DNA of 47,959 nucleotides, taken from the IMG/VR virus record IMGVR_UViG_3300021424_000063, positions 1-47,959 of that record. One strand, given 5' to 3'. Below are positions 16,746 to 26,928 of this stretch, piece by piece. The notes beneath the pieces are model-generated. The model had not been told where the DNA came from, ran no database searches, and saw only the letters and a list, made by a program, of their open reading frames with translations. The translations under genes and the position numbers were made by a program. Within the stretch, counting starts at the first letter, position 1. The number at the start of each line of letters is the position of its first letter. Source of the DNA: a virus.

Positions 16746-17573
16746 TTAAAATTTAGTTTTTTTACCTCCTCCTGTATGATAGATATCTAAACCAGATTCG
16801 TCATCAAAATGTTTCTTCATTGCTTGTACATTCTTTAAGTCGTCATCTGAAAAACCAACATAAGGTACAAAGTAATTACTTATTTTGTTCTTAAGGTAAG
16901 CCTTTTCTTGTAGTCTTTGAGATAGTGTTCTAACATATTCCATGAACTGTTTCATCGCACTTACTTTAAGTTCTTCGGGATTGGCGGCCGAACCCTCACC
17001 GAAACTAACAGGATGATACTTACACATTTCTAAATAAGATTGGATTAATTCTTCATCAGACAAATCTTCCTCGTCATTCATTTCACGATACTTTCGAAGG
17101 TTTTTTACTAACTCATCTTTATTTAATCCGTGCATATTTTTTTTAATAAGTTGATATATTGCAGTTTTTAATATACTTGGTGTATGTCCTCTTGCGGTAA
17201 TTATTGCAAAAATTGATCCATCATTTACTGCCTCCACAAAATCACTCCATGCTGGACCCGTTGGGGCTTTCATAGAATCCACTAAAAATTTTTTATCACC
17301 CGTTACCGTAAAGTCACGAAATGCGTCGTTATCGAAACCAACAATGGTATGTCCATCGTAATCAAAAGGTTCTTTTCCAATTTCAGTTCTATACTCCGCA
17401 AAATCATCCGTGGACATACCAACACTTTGACCATTGTCATCTTTTAAGTAAATCTTTGTTGGCATATACATAAGATTATCATCCCAATCAAATGCATAAT
17501 ACTTCATTGTTGGTGTCAGTTGGTCTTGTATTATTTCTGATATAATACCTCTTACTAATTTTTTATAATCCAT
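16746..17573 (-). CDS. HAD-superfamily-like protein of unknown substrate
   Basis: The 275-residue protein has an N-terminal amphipathic helix, then YYAFDWDDNLMYMP with Asp29 and Asp31. This resembles HAD motif I (D-x-D-x-x). IFAIITARGHTP supplies Thr126 in the place of motif II, and VPYVGFSDDDLKNV (Asp243-245) fits motif IV. A large insertion between motifs I and II (about 35-115) and a helical segment (about 140-220) could be cap regions. HAD enzymes are mostly phosphatases; the substrate cannot be told. It is inserted between sheath and tube genes, an odd place for an enzyme. Two TATTTAT copies precede it, at 4 and 15 bases. Motif III Lys was not assigned. The fold call is moderately sure, the activity is not. 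Confidence 0.6.
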   Translation of the reverse strand: MDYKKLVRGIISEIIQDQLTPTMKYYAFDWDDNLMYMPTKIYLKDDNGQSVGMSTDDFAEYRTEIGKEPFDYDGHTIVGFDNDAFRDFTVTGDKKFLVDSMKAPTGPAWSDFVEAVNDGSIFAIITARGHTPSILKTAIYQLIKKNMHGLNKDELVKNLRKYREMNDEEDLSDEELIQSYLEMCKYHPVSFGEGSAANPEELKVSAMKQFMEYVRTLSQRLQEKAYLKNKISNYFVPYVGFSDDDLKNVQAMKKHFDDESGLDIYHTGGGKKTKF

Positions 17574-17637: not shown

Positions 17638-20600
17638 TTAGATGTTCTCGAAAGAAGCTCCAGTCGGTGTAATAAAGAACGTAATATCGATAAACTCAAG
17701 TGAACGTGTAGGTTTAATATAAATTTTACCTGTCATTTGGTTTCTGTCGATATCTTGTGGATCACTAGAAAGTGTAACTCTAAAGTCATATAGACCTCGG
17801 TCTCTTCTAATCGAATCTAAGATTGGGTTTACAGCGTTTAAGAAGTCTTGTCTTACTTGTGCGTCGTTTTGTTCAAACAATAATCTTACAGATACTGCTG
17901 AAATCAACTTACGTGCTTGTAACAATAATCTTCTAACATTGATTCTATCAAGAGCTGATTCTCTAATTTGTAGAGTTTTGTTACCCCAAATTACACAACC
18001 AACATCAGAGAAAGTTGCGATTGGGTTTATTCTACCTGTATAAAGAACATCTCTATCTTCTTGTGTCAACTTCTTACGAGCCTTGATACAATTAACAATA
18101 CCACGAGTGTAACCCGCCGCAGCGAACCATGGGAACGCAATGTTGTCTGTCAATGCCAAGTTTCTTGTTACCTCAGCAGTTGGTGGGATGTAGATTTGAG
18201 TGTTGTTAACACTGTCTCTTGTTAATACCCAGGGGTAATAAGTTGCGGTATAGTTAGAGTCGATACCTGTATCTTCTAACAAGTTAACCGCTTCTTGAGG
18301 GTAAATTAATCCATCAACACCAGTTGTAGTTGGTAAGAACAAGTTGTAATCAGGACATGTAGTTACATAAAGTGAATCCGCTCTGTTAAACTCAATCATA
18401 TTAATTGCTCTTTCTATCAAGTTACTATTGTTTGAGAAATCAATACCTGGAGTTGTGAAAACATTTATATTAACTGATTCAGGGTTTGCAAATGTTTGTT
18501 GACCTAAAAGATATGCGTAGAAGTCAGTGTTTGCATAGTCTTGTGTACCATCACCAATTGCGATTTGTTTGAATGCTCCCCAACCAGTTGCATTCGGATA
18601 TCTGTTGTCAGGACATGCTCCGTAAAGGTATCCTGTTCTTCCCAATTCGAATCGGTCTGAGTTAGTTCTATATTCTCTATAAATATCCCATCCATCGAAC
18701 CCTCCTTGAACCAAGAATGTGAATTTTCTTGAGAACAATCTGTAATAATCATTTGTTGGTAATTGAGGTTCTTGATCGAAAGTTGAACTACCACAGATAA
18801 ATCTTGGGTCACCACTTGTACTGAATGCTGCACCTAATGTAATACCAGAAGCGTTTTTGTCCATGTGGAAACCTGATGATCTGTAGTTCCAATCAATTCC
18901 GTCAATATCACAAGTATTGTTCGGATTTCTCTTTCCAATATACTCATAATAACTTGGATCCCAACCATAGAAGTTTCCAATACCTAAGTAAGTCCTTCTG
19001 ATGTTGTCACCGGAACTAACGATAACATCGTCAACTCCAGTACTCAAACCAAAGGGCGGATTCCAAATAACTTCACCAGGAAAGTCATATTTTGCTTTGA
19101 TAATTGGGAACGGTGGTTTTCCTCCTTGATACAATTTGAAATTGTAACCGTTAAATCCACATGGAAGAGCATCAATAGGAGCGTCCTCATGAATCTCAAT
19201 CATAATGTATTTAGAGTTTAAATTATACTCACCATCTACCGTACCAATTTTAACACCAATAAAGTTGTTTTGATTTGGATCCATAGAACAATTTGTAAAT
19301 TTTTCTAACACAACAGGGTTAGAATCTGTATCGAAATAATCTCTTACTAATAGTGTAAAGTTGTTATTAGAGAAAGATACGTCTGCGATCGACACTTTAA
19401 GTAGAGTATTTGCTCCATCACCATCAGAGATAGTATAAACTTTAAATAAGTCGAATACTTTATTACCTCTAAGTTCGGACACAACCCATGGAGAACTCGG
19501 AGTTTGGTATCTGTCTAAGTACCATCCGATTGAGTGCACATTTCCACTTTGTGCTGAATCTAATCTTACAAGACTTGGGTTCAAACCTCTGATGTATCCT
19601 TTTTTCCACCCGTAGTTCAACCATGATTGGAATCTTTCTTCACAGAATAATGGAACTTCTAAACGAGGTTTTTGGAAGTTTGTAACTCCAAATACTTTTG
19701 TAACATAACTTGGGTCATTTTGAGAGAATGAAGTTTCAAAAGTATATTGTTGTCCATATCTATTAGTACAGTTAATTGCAAATTTCTCATAAGGATTTTT
19801 TAATACTGAAACATACTGTCCTGTCATATCAATGTTAACATTGGTAAGACCAGTAATCTCATAAGTTGGGTTTTCAGAACTTGTGTAGTATGAAATACCT
19901 CTCGATCTGAAAGTTCCAACTACAACATCATCATATTGTGTATATGAAGTTCCTGTGTAATAGTACACTTTAATGTGTAGCTCACCTGAGTAACAGTTTA
20001 CAGGGACTGGAGATGGTGTTGGTGTTGGGTTAACATGAGCCGATGGTGTAATACATGGGTTCTGAGGAGATGGTGTTGGTGTAGGTGTTACTGAAGCCAA
20101 CGGTGTTGATGTTGGTGTAGGATACAAATACTGAAGATTCTGTACAATTGAAAAGAAAGAGAATCCTGTATACCCATTTCCGTTTAATTCGTGTTCGAAT
20201 TGTGAGTAATACCAAGGATCATTGAATCCTGAACACAAAGTGTTTGCTGAGAAACCAATATTTGGTACATTGTAAACATTTGTAGAAGCTGTGAAAATAG
20301 CATCCAATGTATTATAATCACCATCTTCAATCGAACCAAAATAAGAAATTGTATGATCTTCAGCATCAAAAGGTAGTGGATCGGTGATCACATCAAAAAC
20401 CAAGTCTTGAAGTTGTGTTCCAATTGTTGAAGTTCCTCCATCACCAGTTGTATATGGAGTATTCAATAAGTTTGCGATTTCCGAAGGGAAGGTTCCTTGG
20501 AACTCAACTGTTGTGACTGAGTTAGAACATGCCGTAAAAGGGATGATAAATGTTTCAGTTTTAGCGGATAGACAAACAGGAACACAATCAATTGTTGCTC

Positions 20601-20988
20601 CTGATAAACACCAAACGTCGATTGTTGAGCAATCAACATTTGCCGTTGTGGTAATTGACCAAGATGGTCCTCCGTCATACCCAGAAAGTCCTAATATTCT
20701 TGTAACGAACAATTGATTGGATTGTTGTAGATAAGCTTTAGCAATGTATCCAGCTTCATATTTTGGTATTTGTGTGTTAACAAATTTTTCAGGAGATACA
20801 CCCCCAAAATAAGTTGTAAACTCATCATAGTTCGTTATGAAAATTGGTTCGAAAGCAGGTCCGATAATAGTTTCCCCTACAACACCAAGTGTGGTAACAC
20901 CAACACTTTGAGCAACAAAACTTAGATCAACTTCTGATGTATAGACTCCTGGTGAGACAAAAACCTTACTGTTAGATGAAGTAGCCAT
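17638..20988 (-). CDS. 18: Tail sheath protein (gp18-like) with large insertion
   Basis: The 1116-residue protein begins with the sheath signature FVSPGVYTSEVDLSFVAQS and VGETIIGPAFEPIFI. It ends with the conserved C-terminal domain: CVIWGNKTLQIRESALDRIN, then VRRLLLQARK, then 'LYDFRV', 'IDRNQMTGKIYIKPTRSLEF' and 'IDITFFITPTG'. T4 gp18 is 659 residues, so about 450 residues are extra. The insertion includes a Thr-Pro rich linker at about 293-330 (TPTPTSTPLASVTPTPTPSP) followed by Cys-containing beta-rich material. Inserted domains of sheath proteins usually face outward, so this could display a Thr-rich stalk on the tail surface. The gene has its own TATTTAT motif and strong terminator, fitting high late expression. 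Family call is firm; function of the insertion is unknown. Confidence 0.93.
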   Translation of the reverse strand: MATSSNSKVFVSPGVYTSEVDLSFVAQSVGVTTLGVVGETIIGPAFEPIFITNYDEFTTYFGGVSPEKFVNTQIPKYEAGYIAKAYLQQSNQLFVTRILGLSGYDGGPSWSITTTANVDCSTIDVWCLSGATIDCVPVCLSAKTETFIIPFTACSNSVTTVEFQGTFPSEIANLLNTPYTTGDGGTSTIGTQLQDLVFDVITDPLPFDAEDHTISYFGSIEDGDYNTLDAIFTASTNVYNVPNIGFSANTLCSGFNDPWYYSQFEHELNGNGYTGFSFFSIVQNLQYLYPTPTSTPLASVTPTPTPSPQNPCITPSAHVNPTPTPSPVPVNCYSGELHIKVYYYTGTSYTQYDDVVVGTFRSRGISYYTSSENPTYEITGLTNVNIDMTGQYVSVLKNPYEKFAINCTNRYGQQYTFETSFSQNDPSYVTKVFGVTNFQKPRLEVPLFCEERFQSWLNYGWKKGYIRGLNPSLVRLDSAQSGNVHSIGWYLDRYQTPSSPWVVSELRGNKVFDLFKVYTISDGDGANTLLKVSIADVSFSNNNFTLLVRDYFDTDSNPVVLEKFTNCSMDPNQNNFIGVKIGTVDGEYNLNSKYIMIEIHEDAPIDALPCGFNGYNFKLYQGGKPPFPIIKAKYDFPGEVIWNPPFGLSTGVDDVIVSSGDNIRRTYLGIGNFYGWDPSYYEYIGKRNPNNTCDIDGIDWNYRSSGFHMDKNASGITLGAAFSTSGDPRFICGSSTFDQEPQLPTNDYYRLFSRKFTFLVQGGFDGWDIYREYRTNSDRFELGRTGYLYGACPDNRYPNATGWGAFKQIAIGDGTQDYANTDFYAYLLGQQTFANPESVNINVFTTPGIDFSNNSNLIERAINMIEFNRADSLYVTTCPDYNLFLPTTTGVDGLIYPQEAVNLLEDTGIDSNYTATYYPWVLTRDSVNNTQIYIPPTAEVTRNLALTDNIAFPWFAAAGYTRGIVNCIKARKKLTQEDRDVLYTGRINPIATFSDVGCVIWGNKTLQIRESALDRINVRRLLLQARKLISAVSVRLLFEQNDAQVRQDFLNAVNPILDSIRRDRGLYDFRVTLSSDPQDIDRNQMTGKIYIKPTRSLEFIDITFFITPTGASFENI

Positions 20989-22880: not shown

Positions 22881-24650
22881 TTGGAAAATATACAAACACT
22901 TTTAGAACACAAATCATTGGAAATGCTCGAGTCATACTCGGGGGCAAATAACTATATCCTATACCTAAAAAATAAAAAATTAGTTTCCAAAAAGTTTTAC
23001 CTTACAAGATCACAAGCGGACTACATCATAACCTATCATGATACCAGACCTAAAGTTGCGAGAAAGTGGGTTGACTTGGATAGTTACTTTGCAAAAAAGT
23101 TTGCTGAAGAAAAATATCTTATAGAAACTCCTGATAAGATCTTTATCGAAAAGTTGTTAGTTGAAAAAGAAAAATCTTATCATGTTTGGGGTAAGTTTTT
23201 TGAAAATGATCCTTTGTCTGAATTTTGGGTTCCTAAATCTGCTTTGATTAAAACACATACAGTAGAAAAAGTGGAAATAGACTACTCGAAATATAGTCAT
23301 AGACCTCCATTAAATCACCAAAAAGAAGCAATTGAAAAGTTGGTAAGATCAAAAAGATTTATATTGGCAGATGACATGGGTCTTGGAAAAACAACCTCAA
23401 CAATTATTGCCGCTTTAGAAACAGGAGCAAAAAAAATATTAATAGTTTGTCCAGCATCTCTTAAAATTAATTGGCAAAGAGAAATTTCAAACTATTCAGA
23501 CAGACCCGTTTTTATTTCGGAAGGTAAAAAATATTCAACAGAATCAGATTTTGTTATTGTTAACTATGACATACTGAAAAATTTTCACACAACTGACCCT
23601 AAGAAAAAAGATGAATCTTTATTGTTAAAATCAAATTTTGATTTAGTAATTTTAGATGAGGCACACATGATCTCTAATGTTCAGGCACAAAGAACGAAGT
23701 TAATTAATAGTTTTGTAAAAAAAATTAATAGAGTATGGTTGTTGACTGGAACTCCAATGACATCAAGACCTATGAATTATTATAATCTTCTAAATATAAT
23801 CGAAAGTCCTGTTGCTCAAAATTGGATGGCGTACGCAATTCGATACTGTCAAGGATATCAATTCAAAGCTGGTAACAGAAAAGTTTGGAACGTAACGGGA
23901 GCCTCGAATTTAGAGGAGTTAAGGGAGAGAACATCAAAACAAATTATACGAAGACTGAAAGAAGAGGTTTTAGATCTACCTGACAAAATCATTACACCAA
24001 TTTATTTAAGATTACAATCAAAACAATATGAAGAGTTAATGGGTGAATATTACGATTGGTATGATAAAAACCCCGACGAGTCTTCTTCTCTTACAGTTCA
24101 GTTTTCAAAACTAATGAAAGTTAGAAAAGTAATAGCGAACGAGAAGGTAAACCAAACTATCGAATTTGTCGAGAACATTATCGATCAGGGAAAAAAAGTT
24201 ATAATTTTTACTAATTTCACGGACTCATTACAAACAATTTACCAACACTTTGGTAAACAAGCGGTTTATCTTGACGGTAGTTGTACCAATGCGATGCGTC
24301 AACAAGCGGTTGATTCTTTTCAAAACGATGAAAAAATAAAAGTATTTGTTGGTAATTTAAAAGCCGCAGGTGTAGGTCTTACTTTAACTTCGGCTGAAGT
24401 TGTAATTATGAATGACCTATCTTTTGTACCTGCAGAACATTCACAGGCAGAAGACAGAGCTTATCGTTATGGTCAAAAATCGAATGTTTTAGTTTACTAT
24501 CCACTTTTTGACAACACAATTGAAGCGGCAATCTACGACATTTTAAATAAAAAGAAAGAAATTATTCGAACCGTAATGGGAGATCAACAAATGGAAAATA
24601 GTGGTGATGTTGTTGAGGAAATACTATTTCTTATCAATAAGTCACGTTGA
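22881..24650 (+). CDS. SNF2-family DNA helicase / annealing translocase
   Basis: The 589-residue protein has a complete SNF2 core. Residues 143-172 hold the Q-like region and Walker A (ADDMGLGKTTST, Lys170). Residues 186-199 (IVCPASLKINWQRE) are motif Ia, 256-262 (VILDEAH) is the DEAH box and 286-292 (WLLTGTP) motif III. The helicase C lobe ends in 'HSQAEDRAYRYGQK' (about 520-533), the SNF2 motif VI. The closest layout is the SMARCAL1-like group, which rewinds or remodels DNA; T4 uses UvsW for a comparable role. The first 140 residues are unrecognised and may guide substrate. The open frame begins at TTG 22881; ATG 22923 (residue 15) is an alternative start. It begins a plus-strand cluster that continues into the next three genes. 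Confidence 0.88.
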   Translation: MENIQTLLEHKSLEMLESYSGANNYILYLKNKKLVSKKFYLTRSQADYIITYHDTRPKVARKWVDLDSYFAKKFAEEKYLIETPDKIFIEKLLVEKEKSYHVWGKFFENDPLSEFWVPKSALIKTHTVEKVEIDYSKYSHRPPLNHQKEAIEKLVRSKRFILADDMGLGKTTSTIIAALETGAKKILIVCPASLKINWQREISNYSDRPVFISEGKKYSTESDFVIVNYDILKNFHTTDPKKKDESLLLKSNFDLVILDEAHMISNVQAQRTKLINSFVKKINRVWLLTGTPMTSRPMNYYNLLNIIESPVAQNWMAYAIRYCQGYQFKAGNRKVWNVTGASNLEELRERTSKQIIRRLKEEVLDLPDKIITPIYLRLQSKQYEELMGEYYDWYDKNPDESSSLTVQFSKLMKVRKVIANEKVNQTIEFVENIIDQGKKVIIFTNFTDSLQTIYQHFGKQAVYLDGSCTNAMRQQAVDSFQNDEKIKVFVGNLKAAGVGLTLTSAEVVIMNDLSFVPAEHSQAEDRAYRYGQKSNVLVYYPLFDNTIEAAIYDILNKKKEIIRTVMGDQQMENSGDVVEEILFLINKSR

Positions 24651-24653
24651 TGA

Positions 24654-24660
24654 TATTTAT
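24654..24660 (+). promoter_or_regulatory. TATTTAT motif close to the start
   Basis: Plus strand TGATATTTATCATTAATG, ending 5 bases before the ATG at 24666. It is nearly palindromic (TGATA..TATCA) and directly follows the SNF2 stop. Confidence 0.3.
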
Positions 24661-24665
24661 CATTA

Positions 24666-25769
24666 ATGAAAGTATCTATTTTATTCAAAGACACAAAATT
24701 TAAAGATTCGGATAAAGAATTTATTGAAAAATTTTTAAAGTTTTTGCAATCCGAGTACCCATTAAAAAAAGACATCAAGGTGCGATTTTTGGGTGACAGA
24801 GAAGGTCAAATGTCGACTGGATCAAGAACTGAAGGATCAGAAATAAAAGTTTTAGCAAAAGGAAGACTAAACAGAGACATAATGAGAACCCTGTCTCATG
24901 AGTGGGTTCATGAACACCAACGCTTAATTCTAAACAGAAAAAAAGGGCCAGATATTGGTGGTCAAAATGAAGATGAAGCAAACGCATTTGCGGGACAATT
25001 AATTAAAAAGTTTGAAAAAAAGTATCCTGATTTAGAACATATGATGTATGAGTCTAAAACTATAAACACCAAATTAGGAATACTCCAAGAACAAATTCTT
25101 TTCGAGGAAAGGGAAACTATTAAAGAAAATTTAATAGTTGAAATGAAAAAAATAGGGATCGAAAAACTACCATACTCTTATTCTTCTTTATCACGTTTTA
25201 TTGATTCCAAAACCATGAACGTTCACTATAATAAACATTACAAAGGTTATGTGGACAAACTAAACAAATTCTTAAAGGACAAAAAAGGGGATTTGAGTTT
25301 AGAGGAAATCATTAAATCGATTAATAAATTTGACGATAAAGTCAGAAATAATGCTGGCGGTGCCTTTAATCATGCTTTATTTTGGAAAATGTTGTCACCA
25401 ACAAAACAACTACCCAAAGGTGAAATTTTGAAAAAAATAAATCAAGATTTTGGTAACATAAAAAAAATGAAAGATGAGTTCAACGAAGCCGCTAAAGACA
25501 GATTCGGTTCGGGGTGGGCGTGGTTATATCTTGGTAATGATAATAAGTTGAAAATTATGTCGACACCTAATCAAGATAATCCTTTGATGAACATCGTAAA
25601 AGGCGGTGGATACCCATTATTGGGATTGGACGTTTGGGAACACGCATATTATTTGAAATACCAAAATAAAAGAGATGAGTACATCAAAAAATTTTGGGAT
25701 TCAGTAAATTGGGAATTTGTGGATGAACTATACACCACTAAAATTTCAAAAGAAAAAAACAAAAATTGA
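24666..25769 (+). CDS. Metalloprotease-like domain fused to Mn-type superoxide dismutase
   Basis: The 367-residue protein has two domains. Residues 1-125 carry a zinc-metalloprotease motif, LSHEWVHEHQ (His78-Glu79-x-x-His82), followed by 'GGQNEDEANAFAGQLI', where Glu104 in ExANxFA is the likely third ligand, as in ImmA/IrrE-like proteases. A helical linker covers about 126-165. Residues 166-356 are an Fe/Mn superoxide dismutase: SYSSLSRFID, 'MNVHYNKHYKGYVDKLN' (His187, Tyr195), 'NNAGGAFNHALFWKML' (His236), GSGWAWLYLG (281-290), 'MSTPNQDNPL' (Gln303) and 'GLDVWEHAYYLKYQNKR' (Asp322, His326). All four metal ligands of the family are present. The GG before His236 and the Gln in NQD match the manganese type. 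Superoxide dismutases convert superoxide to peroxide and oxygen. It lies between a helicase and a neck gene, so it may be carried in the virion or act late. I know no such fusion. Confidence 0.88.
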   Translation: MKVSILFKDTKFKDSDKEFIEKFLKFLQSEYPLKKDIKVRFLGDREGQMSTGSRTEGSEIKVLAKGRLNRDIMRTLSHEWVHEHQRLILNRKKGPDIGGQNEDEANAFAGQLIKKFEKKYPDLEHMMYESKTINTKLGILQEQILFEERETIKENLIVEMKKIGIEKLPYSYSSLSRFIDSKTMNVHYNKHYKGYVDKLNKFLKDKKGDLSLEEIIKSINKFDDKVRNNAGGAFNHALFWKMLSPTKQLPKGEILKKINQDFGNIKKMKDEFNEAAKDRFGSGWAWLYLGNDNKLKIMSTPNQDNPLMNIVKGGGYPLLGLDVWEHAYYLKYQNKRDEYIKKFWDSVNWEFVDELYTTKISKEKNKN

Positions 25770-25803: not shown

Positions 25804-26928
25804 ATGGCAGTAATCAACGAACCAGAAAGATCAGAATTTTATCAAAAAGTGAGACATTTATTAGGTGCCCCTCTTAGATCAGTTGAGTTAGAGGACGAAA
25901 TGATGGATACTCTTTTAGAATATTCTATTGACGATTATTCACAATACGTACAAGATTGGTTGATAGAATCACAATGGACATCACTTTATAATTTAAACTT
26001 GGATACACAATCTTTATCAAGAGCGTTTCTTACAAAAAGTTTAGATTATGAAACAAGATACACTTACGCATATTCTAAAATTGTTGGTCTACAAGCCGGC
26101 GGAGATTGGGTTATGAAAAAAGATTATGTCCAATTAGTACCAAACCAACAAATTTATGAAATTCCAGCAAACAGAGAATTAAATGAAATTTTATGGTTCA
26201 CACCACCAACATTAAATAATTTAATGTTTGACCCTTGGGCATTCGGTGGTATTGCAGGTGGTGGTATTTCAGGTCCTGCAGGTTACGCACAAATGGGAAA
26301 CATGTCAGGTAGTTATTTTTTGATGCCGGCATTTGACATGTTACTTAGAATGCAAGAGATTAACATTCAAAGAAGAATCATAGCGGGTGAAATGACCTAT
26401 AGAATTACAGCACTACCTGAAGGTAAAAAAGCACTACATCTAATGAACACACCTGGCGGTAAATTTGACTTTGGTAATGCAGAATTGATGCAAGGTAGAG
26501 TTTGGTATTGGTACTATGATATAGGTGATGGTGACAGAGATCAATGTTTAAAAGACAATCCTGATATAATTAAATTACCTTCCGACATACCATTCGAAAA
26601 AATTAGTTGGTACGAACTAAATAACCCTGCACAGATTTGGGTTAGAAGATGGTTCACTGCATATTGTAAAGAAACCCTTTCTAGAGTAAGGGGTAAATTT
26701 AGCGGAAGTCTCAAAACACCCGAAGGTGATTTGACCATGGATTATACGTCATTGGGTACTGAGGCAAAAGACGAAAAAACTAAATTAATTGAAGAACTAA
26801 CAGGTGCAGAAGGTAGATTAACAAGGTTGAAACCTGAAAAGGTTATGGAAAGAGAAGCGTTGTTGGCAGAAAATCTTAACAAACAACTTAAATTTAGGGC
26901 AATGCCAAGACAGATATATGTAATTTGA
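25804..26928 (+). CDS. 13: Neck protein (gp13-like)
   Basis: The 374-residue protein starts with a helical segment, FYQKVRHLLGAPLRSVELED followed by 'EMMDTLLEYSIDDYSQYVQDW'. This matches the 'x-x-x-R-x-L-G-x-P-x-x-x-V-E-L-x-x-(E/D)-Q-(I/L)-x-x-x-(I/L)-x-x-A-(L/M)-x-x-Y' start of T4 gp13-type neck proteins. The C-terminal half holds 'WVRRWFTAYCKETLSRVRGKF', then a Gly/Pro turn and a charged helix, like the end of gp13. A Gly-rich loop (GGIAGGGISGPAGYA) sits at about 147-161. T4 gp13 (309 residues) sits on the portal and helps attach the tail. ATG 25804 is preceded by a TATTTAT motif at 11 bases. Confidence 0.75.
   Translation: MAVINEPERSEFYQKVRHLLGAPLRSVELEDEMMDTLLEYSIDDYSQYVQDWLIESQWTSLYNLNLDTQSLSRAFLTKSLDYETRYTYAYSKIVGLQAGGDWVMKKDYVQLVPNQQIYEIPANRELNEILWFTPPTLNNLMFDPWAFGGIAGGGISGPAGYAQMGNMSGSYFLMPAFDMLLRMQEINIQRRIIAGEMTYRITALPEGKKALHLMNTPGGKFDFGNAELMQGRVWYWYYDIGDGDRDQCLKDNPDIIKLPSDIPFEKISWYELNNPAQIWVRRWFTAYCKETLSRVRGKFSGSLKTPEGDLTMDYTSLGTEAKDEKTKLIEELTGAEGRLTRLKPEKVMEREALLAENLNKQLKFRAMPRQIYVI

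Follow-up and report, generated by a model that had tools for sequence, protein, structure and literature searches.

Polyvalent proteins (Iyer et al. 2017, PMC5512222) combine several dissimilar domains, including a zincin-like metallopeptidase, in a single polypeptide and are encoded among late structural genes; the main text of that paper uses the word "superoxide" 0 times. The idea of late head cargo is represented by the T4 internal head proteins (IPI-III and Alt), which are processed by the prohead protease gp21. According to PMC9026906, the gp21 cleavage motif is L/I-x-E, T4 head proteins carry propeptides that gp21 cuts, and the peptides that target T4 proteins to the capsid are short stretches at the N-terminus. 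In the giant phage SPN3US, propeptides at the N-terminus are reported to be as long as 254 residues (PMC10052503). As for superoxide dismutase (SOD), the chlorovirus PBCV-1 encodes a Cu/Zn enzyme, A245R, which is expressed from a late gene, packaged in the virion and active, a precedent for virions that contain a working SOD; the enzyme belongs to another family and to an algal virus, and the available text mentions no fusion (PMC7019647). Titles and abstract openings in the open-access literature yielded no report of a phage-packaged or fused SOD.

The SODs of phage Callisto (PA5oct-like) and Vibrio phage 2.275.O belong to the Fe/Mn SOD family, with about 30% identity to the one described here. 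They are 182 and 189 aa long and have no additional N-terminal domain, and the flanks that we compared contain no annotated neck gene. All three annotated phage SOD genes compared are stand-alone. The closest solved SOD (49% identity), the MnSOD of Sphingobacterium sp. T2 (6gsc, 5a9g), is bacterial and also stand-alone. The Kyanoviridae have a stand-alone relative of the N-terminal domain (for example QPX48222.1 of cyanophage S-SRM01) that shares the HExxH...ExxAN arrangement at 25-30% identity; it has no SOD, and a pyrophosphatase gene adjoins it.

Here we analyze a gene that fuses both domains. It lies in a stretch of 47,959 nucleotides, the whole of which we call the window (IMG/VR record IMGVR_UViG_3300021424_000063). 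The features that we refer to are as follows.

22881..24650, + strand: helicase, syntenic upstream neighbor
24654..24660, + strand: TATTTAT, resembling a late promoter element, 5 nt upstream of the start codon
24666..25769, + strand: fusion gene, 367 aa
24666..25055, + strand: N-terminal zincin-like (ImmA/IrrE/SprT-like) domain, residues 1-130, with HEWVH at 78-82 and EDEANAFA at 102-109
25056..25142, + strand: linker (residues 131-159) carrying (L/I)xE sites of prohead-protease-like type; the one nearest the SOD is Ile157-Val158-Glu159, right before Met160
25143..25736, + strand: Mn-type superoxide dismutase, residues 160-357, with putative ligands His187, His236, Asp322 and His326
25804..26928, + strand: head-tail adaptor or neck protein, syntenic downstream neighbor

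Like the polyvalent proteins, the fusion has by sequence at least two unlike domains in one chain, including a metallopeptidase domain (and a third module in relatives), and its gene sits in a late, structural neighborhood; it differs in that the SOD is the constant core and in its gp21-like linker sites. As an idea, it is a variation on injected multidomain cargo. With the T4 internal proteins it shares the (L/I)-x-E sites of gp21-processed head proteins, here putative cleavage sites, and related records encode a gp21-type protease and the capsid protein gp23. Unlike T4 proteins, which have a brief targeting sequence at the N-terminus, the chain in our model starts with a folded 130-aa domain, and its sites are internal; we therefore do not class it as a T4 internal protein, and this difference counts against packaging and cleavage.

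Proposed role

We propose that the gene encodes a late polyprotein that is packaged in the prohead and cut in the head, so freeing a Mn-SOD for delivery with the DNA, a reading that we regard as evenly balanced between right and wrong. The fusion protein would be made late, alongside the virion proteins, and taken up into the prohead, and the phage's gp21-type (S77) prohead protease would cut it at the (L/I)-x-E sites of the linker. The cut would free the SOD from the metalloprotease-like domain and linker, a propeptide of 159 residues that would not be extreme next to those of SPN3US; in many relatives, cutting would also release an exchangeable C-terminal module from the SOD. Injected along with the DNA, the freed enzyme would reduce superoxide in the host as infection begins; alternatively, it would protect the particle and its DNA.

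What favors packaging and cleavage is the conserved fusion and synteny, the SOD ligands, the linker motifs, the S77 protease and gp23 in relatives, the TATTTAT element, and the low pLDDT of the linker. From these we infer that the gene is expressed late, that its product is packaged, cut, enzymatically active and injected, and that the phage benefits. Carriage in the capsid, which the initial annotation had offered as one option, thus gains indirect support from the late-promoter-like element, the junction sites, and the S77 protease of related records. If the proposal holds, phage particles can serve to deliver a redox enzyme, a finding that would tie superoxide to phage infection and give the packaged chlorovirus SOD a phage counterpart.

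The fusion in related phages

Positions 24666-25769 (+) translate as a single 367-aa frame with zero internal stops. The chain runs from the HExxH metalloprotease-like domain (residues ~1-130) through a low-confidence helical linker to a complete Mn-type SOD (160-357), so that the frame, the Pfam SOD domains and the HExxH domain bear out the two-domain architecture proposed by the initial annotation. From a scan of viral contigs we obtained 328 relatives and kept the best 80; another scan, for which the query was a distant N-domain, gave 128, and 80 of those were kept. We read 159 related frames (the window, L001-L080 and L115-L192). The fusion is present in 154 of these, 91 of them distinct; of the five frames without it, four are stand-alone N-domains and one is ended by the contig edge. 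An assembly artefact that joined two genes, which would have undone the earlier claim, is ruled out by the 91 distinct fusions together with the fixed synteny. That the pairing is unusual holds among annotated phages, where 0 of 31 matching records cover at least 80% of the fusion protein and none has a metalloprotease-SOD fusion; it does not hold in the uncultured phage group with its 328 relatives. To judge from these sequences, the fusion is common and old in one group of uncultured phages. Relatives are already present in public protein data, as the BFVD structure library includes a 501-aa phage SOD with 63% identity.

We also considered a bacterial origin and rejected it, as a whole-alignment scan of genome contigs gave zero relatives; a scan with the SOD only gave 18 bacterial SODs of several phyla at 37-49% identity.

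The fusion gene is flanked, as had been claimed, by a helicase (phrog_62, E 7.8e-115) and a neck gene (phrog_211, head-tail adaptor Ad2, E 9.1e-10). Across 153 loci, counting those with enough flank, the helicase is upstream in 148/148 and the neck gene downstream in 132/132. Genes for a DNA polymerase and a tail sheath are also near the fusion gene in the window. The tail sheath (17638-20988, − strand) is 1116 aa long and matches sheath families strongly in its C-terminal part only, the rest being a long extra part.

The superoxide dismutase part

Two Pfam domains are above cut-off, Sod_Fe_N (residues 166-244, E 1.3e-20) and Sod_Fe_C (250-354, E 8.8e-41), and a PDB sequence search gives 161 matches, the best to the MnSOD 6gsc/5a9g with E about 1e-64. 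The residues His187, Tyr195, His236, Gln303, Asp322 and His326 are all placed exactly as the initial annotation had them. The three His and one Asp align to the solved MnSOD, and the equivalent columns are invariant over 16 sequences; His187, His236, Asp322 and His326 correspond to the metal ligands of MnSOD. With all ligands and the Mn-type residues present, this part is by sequence a complete Mn-type SOD. There is one SOD per record in each of the 14 records tested (14/14).

The N-terminal domain

HEWVH and the ExANxFA motif noted earlier are both found, at residues 78-82 and 102-109 (EDEANAFA). The HExxH motif and a downstream Glu, as in Peptidase M78, are present, and H78, E79, H82, E102, A105 and N106 are invariant over 34 sequences, cyanophage stand-alone relatives included. 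The predicted structure has pLDDT mostly 85-94. Pfam gives zero matches to the window's own domain; among the 34 relatives, Peptidase_M78 (PF06114) matches weakly in 15 (E up to 1, best 6.5e-5) and SprT-like, also weakly, in 11, and there is a weak match to a phage metalloprotease family. Compared with viral structures, the model matches IrrE N-terminal-like proteins among others (E 1.8e-5); the result list of a PDB fold search meant for this domain is dominated by SOD matches. We call the domain zincin-like on the basis of the weak M78, SprT and phage metalloprotease matches and the IrrE-like structural ones.

The invariance of the active-site residues bears on a different view, in which the fusion belongs to the injected proteins of polyvalent type and its own zincin-like domain, not gp21, separates the parts, either ahead of packaging or once the protein is in the host. 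For injected multidomain proteins such as P1 DdrB, Iyer et al. (PMC5512222) propose that zincin-like metallopeptidase domains do the processing. The linker sites match the gp21 motif, however, and the N-domain also occurs alone, in proteins of 129-139 aa with no SOD adjoining. None of the eight records with a stand-alone N-domain (four of a close form and four of a cyanophage-type form, some of them fragments) has a detected SOD, which argues for a function of the domain by itself. We consider self-processing rather improbable. Stand-alone N-domain proteins kin to S-SRM01 QPX48222.1 form a large family (L193-L272).

Linkers and putative cleavage sites

In 91/91 distinct fusions the SOD Met is preceded by [LIV]-x-E; the first position of this triplet (P3) is I in 53, L in 32 and V in 6, and x takes nine different residues. 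The pattern that locates this site fixed the E and the M, and all frames that reach that point have both. The Met itself, also found in 91/91, is where a stand-alone SOD would begin, so that an internal start at Met160 might yield free SOD by translation and make proteolysis unnecessary. Such a start would leave the invariant Glu, the restriction at P3 and the second junction unexplained, and we find it highly improbable. Shine-Dalgarno-like sites are uninformative on this point, being rare at all starts (3/132 ordinary starts and 2/91 at the SOD Met).

Two more sites lie 11 and 17 residues upstream in the first linker, with Glu in 61/67 and 62/67 distinct linkers. In this linker [LIV]xE is 2.1 times as frequent as in shuffles (27 non-redundant sequences), and in the linker between the SOD and the C-terminal module of relatives 2.2 times (23 sequences), with 0/400 shuffles as high in either case; given so loose a motif and the relatedness of the sequences, the shuffles overstate significance. 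The second linker has the consensus KTKK..(I/L)(K/N)E(N/S)....(I/L)xE. Other spacings served as controls: [LIV]E and [LIV]xxxE occur less often than expected, whereas [LIV]xxE is enriched 1.7x in the first linker and not enriched (1.03x) at the second junction. Only at the second junction is the excess confined to the spacing with a single x. The [LIV]xxE enrichment in the first linker counts against a cleavage-site reading, and part of the pattern there may be an amphipathic helix. The predicted linker structure has pLDDT of about 50-58.

The [LIV]xxE enrichment agrees with the view that the protein is late but unpackaged, an intracellular enzyme whose SOD lowers superoxide during assembly, with the N-domain as a separate or regulatory protease and the (L/I)xE triplets as a feature of a charged helical linker. 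The stand-alone SOD genes of Callisto and Vibrio phage 2.275.O fit it too, since they demonstrate that phage SOD occurs without the fusion. What it does not explain is the fixed position by the neck gene, the [LIV]xE excess at a second, unrelated junction where [LIV]xxE stays at 1.03x, or the exchangeable modules with the same kind of linker. We judge an unpackaged enzyme unlikely, though it is to be taken seriously.

Elsewhere in the window, a frame at 371-1060 (− strand) with no PHROG match has (L/I)xE-like stretches near its N-terminus and a region rich in Ala and Pro.

Exchangeable C-terminal modules

Many relatives continue past the SOD into a third, exchangeable module from one of four unrelated families; the window copy has none. 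The 142 frames with a located SOD end yield 75 distinct tails, of which 62 are long and 13 short (the latter in 48 frames, including that of the window), a count that leaves out 17 frames in which the SOD end is absent or unmatched by the pattern. The four long-tail families have 23, 20, 8 and 11 distinct tails at 32, 35, 12 and 15 loci. At least one [LIV]xE occurs within the first 45 residues in 62/62 long tails, and in 46/46 distinct 45-residue starts of tails of at least 100 aa, where shuffling expects 30. The short tails have the motif in 0/13, and with lengths of 5-12 residues they make no fair control.

Pfam and PHROGs gave nothing significant for ten C-terminal modules. The best PDB match of the module B model is I-Ssp6803I (2ost; E 1.6e-3, low TM), a fold that we take to be of the PD-(D/E)XK nuclease type. 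Residues E149, D189, Q203 and K205 of module B are invariant, and from these residues and its model it probably resembles PD-(D/E)XK nucleases. Module D is a candidate nuclease by motif only. More generally, the fusion might be a head-packaged, modular polyprotein platform of a jumbo T4-like phage group, in which a constant protease-like domain and Mn-SOD are combined with exchangeable payloads (nuclease-like ones and others), released by the prohead protease and injected, and the phage would thereby supply the cell with an antioxidant enzyme of its own; we put this forward tentatively, as somewhat short of an even bet.

Frames of 702-738 aa in many relatives had raised the suspicion of a SOD fused to the neck protein. 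The extra part consists of separate modules, and the neck gene comes after it.

Prohead protease and capsid protein in related records

A gp21-type S77 protease is encoded in 3/11 and 7/9 records, which amount to 8/17 distinct related records, and in 4/4 of those larger than 250 kb. The capsid protein gp23 is encoded in 4/11 related records. Its N-terminal part has LINE|A in 4/4, similar to the linker sites and presumably the gp23 cut position, since it lies ahead of the conserved protein body. Neither gene was found in the window record or in a near-identical relative of 133,946 bases (G009), both of which are fragments, and this counts against packaging and cleavage.

A late-promoter-like element

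TATTTAT lies 4-6 nt ahead of the fusion start in 65/73 distinct upstream sequences, against 4.2 expected from shuffling, and 5 nt before the ATG in 61. The 8/73 without it count against a late, packaged protein. In the related record G006, 103 of 317 frames have TATTTAT within 45 nt of the start, among them a sheath homologue, a neck homologue, the S77 protease and a gene beside gp23; it is from the kinds of genes bearing the element that we call the timing late. The gp23 gene of G006 itself has no TATTTAT within 45 nt, which counts against this argument. At least two [LIV]xE occur in residues 2-41 of 44/90 G006 proteins with the element versus 37/175 without (p 5.6e-6), and a control region (residues 61-100) has no such excess in element-bearing genes. 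The association suggests that the element-bearing genes form a class of late, processed cargo proteins, with the fusion a possible member. The element together with the (L/I)xE signature may expose many more packaged proteins in uncultured jumbo phages.

Several element-bearing genes of G006 have an N-terminus in common, like LTESDLARIVKRVINE. About nine proteins of this record (L093-L106) have in common an N-terminus of the type MKRIIRLTESDLARIVKRVINE, possibly a shared targeting peptide. Shine-Dalgarno-like sites precede only 3 of the 132 large ATG frames of G006. In the window, a frame at 16746-17573 (− strand) with no PHROG match starts with MDYKKLVRGIISEIIQDQ and has TATTTAT ahead of it, a further candidate for the late class.
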